NCBI GenBank assembly: GCA_026388125.1
Contig: JAPLKJ010000252.1
Span: forward strand, 1-36,011
DNA: 36,011 bases
DNA from: Elusimicrobiota bacterium
Lineage (GTDB): Bacteria > Elusimicrobiota > Elusimicrobia > Elusimicrobiales > UBA9959
Reading direction: 5' to 3'
Shown piece after piece: positions 17,725 through 25,374 of the stretch. The notes beneath the pieces are model-generated. The model worked only from the letters and a program-made list of their open reading frames with translations. It was not told where the DNA came from and searched no databases. Numbering within the stretch: position 1 is the stretch's first letter; each line of letters opens with the position of its first letter. Position numbers and translations under genes: made by a program.

Positions 17725-17870
17725 GCGTAGTTGCCTCCTTGAGAAACCTTACAGGTATAGTTTGCCAGAAACCGAGGGGGCCCGCAACGGGCTTAAGGCC
17801 CGATATTTCCCCGGTTTAGGGCCTATGCGGCCTGGGCCCTTTGCTTCCGCCGTTCTGGGTCCCGGCGGAC

Positions 17871-17898
17871 TTGCCGAACCGCCCGGTTCTGTTAAACT
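17871..17898 (+). promoter_or_regulatory. Sigma70-type promoter of first clostripain-family gene
   Basis: TTGCCG (17871-17876), a 16-base spacer and TAAACT (17893-17898) form the promoter; TG lies three bases before the -10 (TGTTAAACTAT). The ribosome site TTACGGAGG (17912-17920) is four bases before the ATG at 17925. The next gene has the same layout. Confidence 0.75.
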
Positions 17899-17924
17899 AT
17901 AGCTACGTACATTACGGAGGCATT

Positions 17925-19319
17925 ATGAAAAACAGCAACACCGCGGCCGCTTTCCTGATACTCGCAGCCGGCTTCGCTCCCCTCGGCGCGATGGACCTCG
18001 ATTTCGCCGGCAGCTCCTATAAAGCGGCCCCCGTGGCCGTGTCAGCCCCGGCTCCCGTTAAAGCGCGCTCGGCCGCGCCCAAGGTAAAAGAATGGACCGT
18101 CATGGTGTTCATCAACGGCAAGAACAACCTGGAGATGGCCGGGCTGTACAACGTTAACAAGATGGAGAAAGTCGGCTCCGACGCCAACGTCAATATCGTG
18201 GTGGAACTGGGCCGCATGAACGGCCAGGCCGCCGGCGACACCGACCTGGACGGCAACTGGACCGGCTCGCGCCGGCTGTTCATTAAGAAAGATAAGGACG
18301 AGGAGAAGATAACCTCCCCCGTGGTGCACGTCTCCTCCACCGTGGACATGGGCGACTACAAGCGCGTGGTGAATTTCGTCAACTGGGCCAAGACCAGCTA
18401 CCCGGCCAAGAAATACATGCTGGTGCTGTGGGACCACGGCTCCGGCTGGATGGACCCCCGCGTCAGCCAGGAGCCTAAAACCGAGGGGAAAGGCATTTCT
18501 TTCGACGACGAGACCAATAACTACATCCGCACCAAGCAGATAGGCGACATTCTCAAAGAGTCCGGCAAAGTGGACGTGCTGGCTTACGACGCCTGCCTGA
18601 TGCAGATGGGCGAGGTGGCTTTCGAAGTTAAGGCCAACGCGGAGGTGATAGTGGGCTCCGAGGAGACCGTGCCGGGGATGGGCTTCCCCTACGACCTCTT
18701 CCTTGGCGCGCTGGTCAAGAAGCCGGCCTTCAGCGCCGAAGAGCTGGGCGCGCTGACGGTGGAAGCCTATAAGATGTTCTACGACGCGATGAACAACGCC
18801 GGGAAGAAAATGGGCGGGCAGCTTTCTGCTATCCGCTCCTCGAAGCTGAACGACCTGGGCGTGAAGACCGCCGAGTTCGCCGCGCTGGCCAAAGAGGTCA
18901 ACGACGTGGAGGCGCTCAAGATCGCCCGCGCCGGCGTGATCCGCTACGACATGATAGGGGCGGCCTCCGATCCCAACATGGCCATCTCGTTCTATGGCGA
19001 CCTGCACCAGTACGCCGGCCTGCTGGCCAACGCCCTCAAGGGCACCGACGATAAAGCCCTTGCGCTCAAGGCGAAGGCCGCCGAGCTGCAGGAGTATATC
19101 GACAAGGAAGTGATGATCGATAACCAGGCCACCGGCAACAACCGCGTCGGCCGCGCTCTTTCGGAGAGCCACGGCATCTCGGTATACCTGCCGCCCGCCG
19201 AGGTGCGCATAGCGCAGGAGAAGCTCGAGAATATCTTCGAAGGGAAATACGCCGACTTCGAATTCGACAAAGCCGCGAAGTGGCACGACTACGTGACTTT
19301 CCTGTACGGCGTAAAATAA
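17925..19319 (+). CDS. Exported clostripain-family (C11) cysteine protease, copy 1
   Basis: This 464-residue protein has a signal peptide (to about residue 22), a short Pro/Ala linker and a C11 peptidase domain. The catalytic His is His171 in LVLWDHGSGW and the nucleophile Cys224 in YDACLMQMGEVAFEV. VMVFINGKNNLE and GSEETVPGMGFPYD are further family signatures. Clostripain relatives cleave after Arg or Lys and often process themselves; specificity here is inferred from family. The ATG at 17925 is set by TTACGGAGG upstream and by the signal peptide, although the frame is open further back. The neighbouring gene is a close paralogue with the same promoter layout, so this is a tandem duplication. 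Confidence 0.9.
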   Translation: MKNSNTAAAFLILAAGFAPLGAMDLDFAGSSYKAAPVAVSAPAPVKARSAAPKVKEWTVMVFINGKNNLEMAGLYNVNKMEKVGSDANVNIVVELGRMNGQAAGDTDLDGNWTGSRRLFIKKDKDEEKITSPVVHVSSTVDMGDYKRVVNFVNWAKTSYPAKKYMLVLWDHGSGWMDPRVSQEPKTEGKGISFDDETNNYIRTKQIGDILKESGKVDVLAYDACLMQMGEVAFEVKANAEVIVGSEETVPGMGFPYDLFLGALVKKPAFSAEELGALTVEAYKMFYDAMNNAGKKMGGQLSAIRSSKLNDLGVKTAEFAALAKEVNDVEALKIARAGVIRYDMIGAASDPNMAISFYGDLHQYAGLLANALKGTDDKALALKAKAAELQEYIDKEVMIDNQATGNNRVGRALSESHGISVYLPPAEVRIAQEKLENIFEGKYADFEFDKAAKWHDYVTFLYGVK

Positions 19320-19336: not shown

Positions 19337-19375
19337 AAAACCCGGCTTGCCCCGTGAGGCAGGCCGGGTTTTTTT
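19337..19375 (+). terminator. Terminator after clostripain copy 1
   Basis: AAAACCCGGC (19337-19346) pairs with GCCGGGTTTT (19363-19372), and T continues to 19375. It separates the two paralogues, so each is its own transcript. Confidence 0.9.
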
Positions 19376-19394
19376 ACGCCCGGCGGCGGAGGGC

Positions 19395-19422
19395 TTGCCA
19401 ATTCGCCGGTTTCTGCTAGACT
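19395..19422 (+). promoter_or_regulatory. Sigma70-type promoter of second clostripain-family gene
   Basis: TTGCCA (19395-19400), a 16-base spacer and TAGACT (19417-19422) form the promoter, preceded by TGC (extended -10). The layout copies the promoter of the first paralogue. TTACGGAGG follows four bases before the ATG at 19449. Confidence 0.75.
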
Positions 19423-19448
19423 ATAGCAGCGGACCTTACGGAGGCTTT

Positions 19449-20831
19449 ATGAGAAAAGTATTTGCCGCGGCGGCTTTACTGGCTTTTATCCCGGGGCTCG
19501 CGCCGTTCTCTCGGGCGCTGGAATTCAACTTCGCCGGCGTCTCCTACAAGTCGGCCCCGGCCGCGGTGTCCGCGCCGGACATGGTGAATACCAAGTCGGC
19601 GGCGCCCAAGGTGAAGGAATGGACCATAATGGTGTTCCTCAACGGCAAGAACAACCTTGAACTGGCCGGGCTTTATAACGTCAACAAGATGGAGAAGGTC
19701 GGTTCCGACGCCAATATAAATGTCGTAGTGGAACTAGGACGTATGAACGGCCAGGCCGCCGGCGACACGAATATGGACGGGAACTGGACCGGCTCGCGCC
19801 GGCTGTACATCAAGAAAGATAAGAACGATATGGTGGTAACCTCACCGATAGTACAGAAAGCGCCGGTAGTGGACATGGGCGACTATAAGCGCGTGGTGAG
19901 TTTCGTTAAATGGGCCAAGGAAAGCTATCCCGCCAGGAAGTACATGCTGGTGCTGTGGGACCACGGTTCGGGCTGGATGGACCTCCGTGCCAGACAGGAG
20001 CCTAAAGCCGAGCGGAAAGGAATTTCTTTTGACGACGAGACCGGTAACTTCATAAGGACGCGGCAGATAGGCGATATCCTTAAAGAGGCGGGCCGCGTGG
20101 ACGTGCTGGCTTACGACGCCTGCCTGATGCAGATGGCCGAGGTGGCGTTCGAGGTGAAAGACAACGCGTCGGTGATCGTCGGCTCCGAGGAGACCGTGCC
20201 CGGGACGGGCTACCCCTACGATCTCATCCTCGGCGTGCTGGCTCAAAAGCCCGCCCTGAGCGCGGAAGACATGGGCATCCTTACGGTGGAAGCTTATAAG
20301 GCGTTCTATGAGGCGATGAAGAAAGGCACTCAGCTTTCGGCCATCCGCGCCGCGAAACTGGGCGACCTGGGAACGAAGCTGGCTGAATTCAGCGCGCTGG
20401 CCAGAGAGGTGAACGACGCCGGCGCGCTCAGGGCCGCCCGCGCCGGCGTGATCCGCTACGATATGCTCGGGGTGGAGCTCGATCCCAAGATGAGCATTTC
20501 TTTCTACGGCGACCTGCACCAGTACGCCGGGCTGATGGCGGCCGGCCTTAAAAGTAACGACGGCAAGGCGGCCGCGCTCAGGCAGAAGGCCGCCGCGCTG
20601 CAGCAGTTCATAGATAAGGAACTGGTGATAGACAATAAGGCCACGGGCAACAACCGCCTCGGCCGCCCCATGGCTGAAAGCCGCGGCATTTCCGTCTATC
20701 TGCCGCCGGCGGAAACCCGCGTGGCGCAGGCGAAGCTGGAGGGGCTGTTCGAGGGGAAATACGGCGAGTTCCGGTTCGACAAGGACGTGCATTGGCACGA
20801 TTATGTGACTTATCTGTACGGCGTGAAGTAA
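19449..20831 (+). CDS. Exported clostripain-family (C11) cysteine protease, copy 2
   Basis: The 460-residue paralogue of the upstream gene keeps the signal peptide, the linker (EFNFAGVSYKSAPAAVSAP), His172 in LVLWDHGSGW and Cys225 in YDACLMQMAEVAFEV, so it should be active. Most differences are conservative. A notable one is the shorter MKKGTQLSAIR loop, where copy 1 has a longer Asn/Gly/Lys insert, and the mature N-terminus also varies. Maintenance of two intact copies with separate promoters and terminators suggests distinct substrates or a dosage benefit. The ATG at 19449 follows a strong ribosome site; the frame is open further upstream by chance. Confidence 0.9.
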   Translation: MRKVFAAAALLAFIPGLAPFSRALEFNFAGVSYKSAPAAVSAPDMVNTKSAAPKVKEWTIMVFLNGKNNLELAGLYNVNKMEKVGSDANINVVVELGRMNGQAAGDTNMDGNWTGSRRLYIKKDKNDMVVTSPIVQKAPVVDMGDYKRVVSFVKWAKESYPARKYMLVLWDHGSGWMDLRARQEPKAERKGISFDDETGNFIRTRQIGDILKEAGRVDVLAYDACLMQMAEVAFEVKDNASVIVGSEETVPGTGYPYDLILGVLAQKPALSAEDMGILTVEAYKAFYEAMKKGTQLSAIRAAKLGDLGTKLAEFSALAREVNDAGALRAARAGVIRYDMLGVELDPKMSISFYGDLHQYAGLMAAGLKSNDGKAAALRQKAAALQQFIDKELVIDNKATGNNRLGRPMAESRGISVYLPPAETRVAQAKLEGLFEGKYGEFRFDKDVHWHDYVTYLYGVK

Positions 20832-24297: not shown

Positions 24298-24303
24298 TAT
24301 AAT
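24298..24303 (+). promoter_or_regulatory. -10 box placed for a leaderless transcript
   Basis: TATAAT ends six bases before the ATG at 24310, so transcription would begin at or next to the start codon. No ribosome site lies between. No convincing -35 box is visible at 16-18 bases. Confidence 0.5.
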
Positions 24304-24309
24304 TGCGGT

Positions 24310-25296
24310 ATGATAAAGTTCTATGGGGTGTTTGGGTTATGTTTGTTTTCCTTTCTGGCCGCCCGCGCAGGCGCGGCCCTGCCGGCCGAGGTCTTAAGAC
24401 AGACCGCCGACCCCGGCCTTGAACAGGCCATCACGGCCGGGGCGCTGGAGGCGGCAACGCCTTTGGCCGAGCCCGTGCCGCAGCCGGCTGGTTTTTCCGG
24501 CACAGCCGACTGCTATAAAGCCGCAAGCCCGCTTACTAAATTCCCGCCGCTTCTCTGCGCCGGCGCCGCTACGGCCGCCCCCGCGGCTTGTTTCACCGCG
24601 GCCAAAGACCTTACCGGCTACCCCGCCATGCTTTGTTCGGGCGCCGTGTCCAACGCGCCGGTGGATTGCTTTAAAGCGGTGAAAGACCTTACCCGGTTCC
24701 CGGCCCTGCTCTGCGCCGGAGCGCGCGAAGCCGCCGCCCCCGCGGCCTGCTTCAAGGCGGCCGGCGACCTTACAGGTTTCCCGGCGCTGCTCTGCCTGGG
24801 GGCGTCGTCCAACGCGCCGCTGGCTTGTTTCAAAGCGGCCAAGGACCTTACCGGATACCCGGCGCTGCTGTGCGCCAAAGCCGCGGACCTGGCGCCCATA
24901 GACTGCTTTAAGGCGGCCAAAGGGTTAACGGATTATCCCGCGCTTTTGTGCTCCGGCGCGGCTACGCTCGCCCCGGTTGAATGCTTCAAAGCTGCCAAAG
25001 GCCTGGCGGACTATCCGGCGCTGCTGTGTTCCGGCGCCGCTTCCAACGCCCCGGTGGATTGTCTTAAGGAACTGAAAGGCCTTACCAAGAACCCCGACCT
25101 GCTCTGCTCGCCCAACGGCGTGCTTAAGGGCGTCACGCTGCACAATATCGACCCCTCCTATAAACTTACGTATCCGTACCCTTATCCGAACCCGTATCCG
25201 TTCTGGTTCCCGTTCCCCGACCCCAACGTGGACCCCAGCCAGCCGCCGCCCGCGCCCCAGCCGGCGCCGCGGGAGGGAGCCGACTCCGTACTCTGA
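24310..25296 (+). CDS. Exported protein with eight two-cysteine repeats
   Basis: I do not know this protein. The 328 residues comprise a signal peptide (to about 22), a Pro/Ala-rich stretch, then eight repeats of 26 (once 27) residues beginning at Cys68, 94, 120, 147, 173, 199, 225 and 251. Each repeat has a second Cys exactly 15 residues after the first. Consensus is C-F-K-A-A-K-x-L-T-x-[YF]-P-A-L-L-C-x-G-A-x-x-x-A-P-x-x. Sixteen paired cysteines in an exported protein suggest disulfides or metal ligands in a helical-repeat rod. The tail alternates Pro and aromatics (YPYPYPNPYPFWFPFPDPN), then PPPAPQPAP. The frame is open from 24232, but the signal peptide sets the ATG at 24310, with TATAAT just upstream. 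Confidence 0.85.
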   Translation: MIKFYGVFGLCLFSFLAARAGAALPAEVLRQTADPGLEQAITAGALEAATPLAEPVPQPAGFSGTADCYKAASPLTKFPPLLCAGAATAAPAACFTAAKDLTGYPAMLCSGAVSNAPVDCFKAVKDLTRFPALLCAGAREAAAPAACFKAAGDLTGFPALLCLGASSNAPLACFKAAKDLTGYPALLCAKAADLAPIDCFKAAKGLTDYPALLCSGAATLAPVECFKAAKGLADYPALLCSGAASNAPVDCLKELKGLTKNPDLLCSPNGVLKGVTLHNIDPSYKLTYPYPYPNPYPFWFPFPDPNVDPSQPPPAPQPAPREGADSVL

Positions 25297-25320
25297 CGGC
25301 CGGCGCGCTGCCGTTATATA

Positions 25321-25354
25321 AAAATACCGGGCCCCCTGCGGGACCCGGTATTTT
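25321..25354. terminator. Bidirectional terminator between convergent genes
   Basis: AAAATACCGGG (25321-25331) pairs with CCCGGTATTTT (25344-25354), an 11-bp perfect stem with A- and T-runs on the two sides. It can end both the Cys-repeat gene and the pterin synthase gene. Confidence 0.93.
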
Positions 25355-25374
25355 TCTGCCCGGCAGAACGAACC

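Follow-up and report, generated by a model that had tools for sequence, protein, structure and literature searches.

An exported eight-unit cysteine-repeat protein of Elusimicrobiota is a predicted alpha/alpha solenoid from a repeat family found in three phyla

What kind of protein carries eight regularly spaced pairs of cysteines behind an export signal, and what purpose could the cysteines serve? This question is raised by a gene of the window, which is the whole stretch of DNA analysed here (36,011 nucleotides from an Elusimicrobiota bacterium). The original prediction described an exported rod-like protein with an aromatic/proline tail, and proposed a disulfide-laddered solenoid, a metal or heme binding array, or an adhesion stalk. 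It was partly supported: the exported, regular and elongated array, likely a solenoid, stands, and the heme or metal array found no support. The gene and its parts are as follows.

24310..25296, plus strand: whole gene of the eight-unit cysteine-repeat protein, 328 amino acids (ATG at 24310, stop at 25294-25296)
24298..24303, plus strand: TATAAT, a -10-like hexamer ending 6 nt upstream of the ATG (sequence reading)
24310..24375, plus strand: Sec-type signal peptide, about residues 1-22, MIKFYGVFGLCLFSFLAARAGA (sequence reading)
24376..24492, plus strand: weakly conserved linker, residues 23-61 (orthologue alignment; low confidence in the first structural model)
24493..25128, plus strand: repeat array, residues 62-273, eight alpha/alpha units with 16 cysteines (spacing, AlphaFold)
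25138..25293, plus strand: C-terminal Pro/aromatic tail, residues 277-328 (16 prolines and 9 aromatic residues in 52 residues)
25320..25357, no strand assigned: inverted repeat between A and T runs (sequence reading)

The array consists of eight C-x14-C units, whose cysteine pairs lie at residues 68/83, 94/109, 120/135, 147/162, 173/188, 199/214, 225/240 and 251/266. The distance within a pair is constantly 15, the start-to-start spacing is 26, 26, 27, 26, 26, 26 and 26, and the array cysteines are therefore limited to spacings of 15 and 11/12. These values agree to the residue with those first proposed. A chain of 16 cysteines alternating between the two spacings is observed, whereas shuffling the residues 20,000 times gave no chain longer than 5. 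A further cysteine at position 11 is inside the signal peptide and outside the array. The signal peptide was read by eye from its positive start, hydrophobic core and AxA-like site; a crude and unreliable rule missed it. The tail core PYPFWFPFPDP is invariant in family f1, that of the nine family-level orthologues, and is recognisable in families f7, f8 and f13. The tail was also considered as a shared sorting tag, and this was rejected because no second convincing tail-bearing protein was found in the source genome or 40 relatives.

The TATAAT hexamer is probably the promoter of a leaderless mRNA. Its spacing to the ATG is identical in 8 of 9 orthologues of family f1 and the hexamer is absent in L006, and f7 orthologues have a GGAGG-type ribosome site instead of a close TATAAT. 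The inverted repeat downstream is likely a bidirectional terminator, placed between this gene and its convergent neighbour of the PTPS/QueD family. Comparison with three orthologues gave a dN/dS of 0.11-0.15 (about 0.13), which indicates that the gene is under purifying selection. No conserved gene neighbour was found beyond close relatives or in family f7, so the neighbourhood gives no hint of the function of the protein.

Sixteen conserved cysteines could also stay reduced and bind metal or heme as an array of thiols. The motif check found no histidine in the array and no CxxCH, CxC or CC; the CxxCH motifs of multiheme cytochromes and the CxC or CC clusters of metallothionein-like proteins are thus absent, and the cysteine spacing is unlike that of known metal sites. 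A thiol array is therefore highly improbable.

Searches against known families did not place the repeat. Pfam, NCBIfam and PDB sequence searches returned only sub-threshold chance matches, such as AP5B1_N, and so no characterised repeat family was matched. The relatives tested gave no Pfam or NCBIfam match, and a two-unit profile gave no PDB chain. No relative was found among phages, plasmids and viral contigs (one of these searches used a Myxococcus member as query), and no description of the repeat was found in the literature.

The fold was modelled with AlphaFold. The first model, built from 9 alignment rows, was too weak, with an overall pLDDT of 49. A second model of the array, which used a 39-row alignment drawn from three phyla, contains 16 helices with a pLDDT of 96.6 and a pTM of 0.91, values that may be inflated for a repetitive sequence. 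In every modelled unit, a helix A is centred on the first cysteine (C1) and a short helix B ends at the second (C2). The array is thus predicted with high confidence to be an alpha/alpha solenoid. Foldseek found nothing below E = 1.6 in the PDB, where no Hcp entry was matched, and no match in a viral library. The nearest, non-significant matches were the superhelices of TAL effectors and BurrH (E >= 1.6, TM-score 0.28-0.38), which resemble the array in being alpha/alpha superhelices. The TAL effector and BurrH repeats are longer and bind DNA, and we know of no disulfide ladder in them.

The eight-unit form is widely kept within Elusimicrobiota. All nine family-level orthologues have eight units and retain every one of the 16 array cysteines. 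The gene is carried by 23 of the 235 genomes of the class, nearly always with eight units, and the L032 copy has four. Every carrier with a named phylum is from Elusimicrobiota, including CP096137.1, a genome from an amoeba culture whose organism was described as diderm and aerobic (PMC9476967). Weak matches in L010-L012 were judged spurious. The gene tree agrees with the families, which makes the patchy occurrence look mainly like loss. In cross-species comparisons, units 1 and 8 were matched in register in 97-99% of cases and unit 6 in 75%. Units 1 and 8 thus remain recognisable from one species to another, which suggests a capped rod whose length is inherited. These comparisons indicate that the array of eight units is old and that its ends differ from the rest.

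The original prediction tentatively linked similar cysteine repeats to predatory bacteria, and this link was borne out. Sequence comparison places the unit in an unnamed repeat family that spans Elusimicrobiota, Bdellovibrionota and Myxococcota, the latter two of which contain predatory bacteria. The family unit reads C[FY]xxA, a variable loop, LC and xGAxxxxPxx, and exported proteins from Bdellovibrionota and Myxococcota carry it, as do Elusimicrobiota paralogues; the export signals were seen by eye, as the crude signal-peptide rule is unreliable. The eight-unit protein itself has tandem C[FY]xxA ... LC-x-GA units with a C2-to-C1 spacing of 11 or 12. A degenerate DNA pattern encoding LCxGAxxxxPxxC[FY]xxA, scanned across genome contigs, gave 89 stretches, many of them by chance; clear relatives came from Bdellovibrionales, Bacteriovoracaceae, Myxococcus, Polyangium and an Oxalobacter-labelled MAG. 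The two-unit profile matched 16 of 144 Bdellovibrionota genomes and 41 of 146 Myxococcota genomes. In the source genome, where further copies had been suggested as a check, it found one paralogue with four units on contig C179. The Bdellovibrionota and Myxococcota proteins (e.g. L117, L141, L172, L136 and L165) share the unit and the C2-to-C1 spacing, and L117 and L141 also share the end cap LCS-x-x-GGL. They differ in a longer C1-to-C2 loop (mostly 17-21), in having mostly 3-9 units and in lacking the Pro/aromatic tail. The Myxococcota genes are solitary, without conserved neighbours. In one Bdellovibrionota protein (L201, 1396-1971), the five units of 32 residues are almost identical, which points to recent duplication of units.

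The ends of the arrays bear on how the cysteines are paired. Among 83 distinct arrays, the C1-to-C2 distance ranges from 14 to 32, whereas 305 of the 323 distances from C2 to the next C1 are 11 or 12; 75 arrays begin with C1 and finish with C2. The other eight are explained by truncation (L067, L143, L065), an extra end cysteine (L109, L194, L200, L081) or a residue filter of the parser (L199). Several Bdellovibrionota proteins have an extra N-terminal cysteine. Most Myxococcota proteins have an extra C-terminal cysteine, which is missing in L213, L225 and L226 with all array cysteines intact. Because a complete array has C1 as its first cysteine and C2 as its last, pairing within units would leave no array cysteine free. 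Together with the loss of the extra Myxococcota cysteine from intact arrays, this favours, without proving, one disulfide inside each unit. Two exported DsbA-like proteins of the source genome (CPYC and CPAC; G000 contigs C40 and C65) also count for disulfides. DsbB or VKOR was not found in that genome, which leaves the re-oxidation of DsbA unexplained. Across the class VKOR is uncommon, with 7 of 231 genomes carrying it.

A bond from C2 to the next C1 is geometrically possible too, which counts against pairing within units. The same solenoid could then be held by disulfides between neighbouring units, and the free first C1 and last C2 could link molecules head-to-tail as fibres. Of the two cysteine distances, that from C2 to C1 is nearly constant, and the disulfides of Helicobacter Hcp proteins tether one repeat to the next in this way (PMC3851747). 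HcpB and HcpC (Sel1-like, PF08238) resemble the present protein as secreted alpha/alpha solenoids with regularly placed disulfides, which here are putative. Sel1-like repeats usually have 36-38 residues (PMC3851747), whereas the unit here has 26 residues and another motif, with no Pfam match at E <= 1. Pairing between units would leave C68 and C266 unpaired, yet none of the nine f1 orthologues lacks either of them, and complete arrays of three phyla keep the first C1 and the last C2. By residue count, moreover, the end of helix B would lie level with the middle of helix A of its own unit. The array ends favour pairing within units, and bonds between units are unlikely.

The protein could also be a polyprotein precursor that is cleaved to release eight small hairpin peptides, each stapled by its cysteines, which would act on cells nearby. 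A secreted precursor with repeated, cysteine-paired hairpins and the relatives in predatory lineages would fit. As read from the sequence, though, the linkers have no dibasic sites and are conserved in length and sequence; units 1, 6 and 8 are individually kept, and the model predicts one continuous solenoid. Such processing is very unlikely.

The reading that we consider probable is a secreted rod built from helical hairpins, each stapled by a disulfide, with a conserved Pro/aromatic tail, in which the disulfides, their pairing, the extracytoplasmic location and the scaffold or binding role are all putative. Each unit would form a small antiparallel hairpin of helix A (AP-VD-C1-FKAA), a loop (K-DLTGY) and the short helix B (PALL-C2), stapled by one disulfide from C1 to C2. 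The near-constant linker of 10 residues, SGAxSNAPVD, would stack the next unit. Eight units would thus build a stiff alpha-solenoid rod, followed by a conserved LCSxNG cap and the tail as a putative ligand-binding or anchoring part. A disulfide-laddered solenoid, as originally proposed, is accordingly the most likely form, given the modelled fold and the pattern of array ends.

A location outside the cytoplasm is indicated by two Bdellovibrionota members, one with a prepilin-like N-terminus joined to five units (L202 814-1941; L258 6431-7555) and one with a lipobox-like signal (L195). The L202 gene adjoins a gamma-glutamyltranspeptidase gene. Together with export, the lack of catalytic features and the unique conserved tail, these relatives suggest a scaffold, secreted or at the cell surface, with the tail as its binding part, and the role is probably that of a binding or surface scaffold. 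The protein may also be an adhesion stalk, as originally proposed. More tentatively, the family may represent a new fold class, a secreted alpha-solenoid of ~26-residue stapled hairpins that gives three phyla a scaffold or contact protein outside the cell and is undescribed in the libraries searched.

These results unite scattered hypothetical proteins of three phyla, predatory and social bacteria included, as one exported repeat family, whose fold is predicted with confidence and matches no solved structure significantly. The short, putatively disulfide-stapled module is possibly designable, and it offers a concrete target for how Elusimicrobiota, Bdellovibrionota and Myxococcota build surface structures.

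Elsewhere in the window, 17841-19319 and 19347-20831 encode a tandem pair of related secreted proteins, whose copies in a close relative are 71% identical. The first of the pair matches the clostripain-family protease PF03415.
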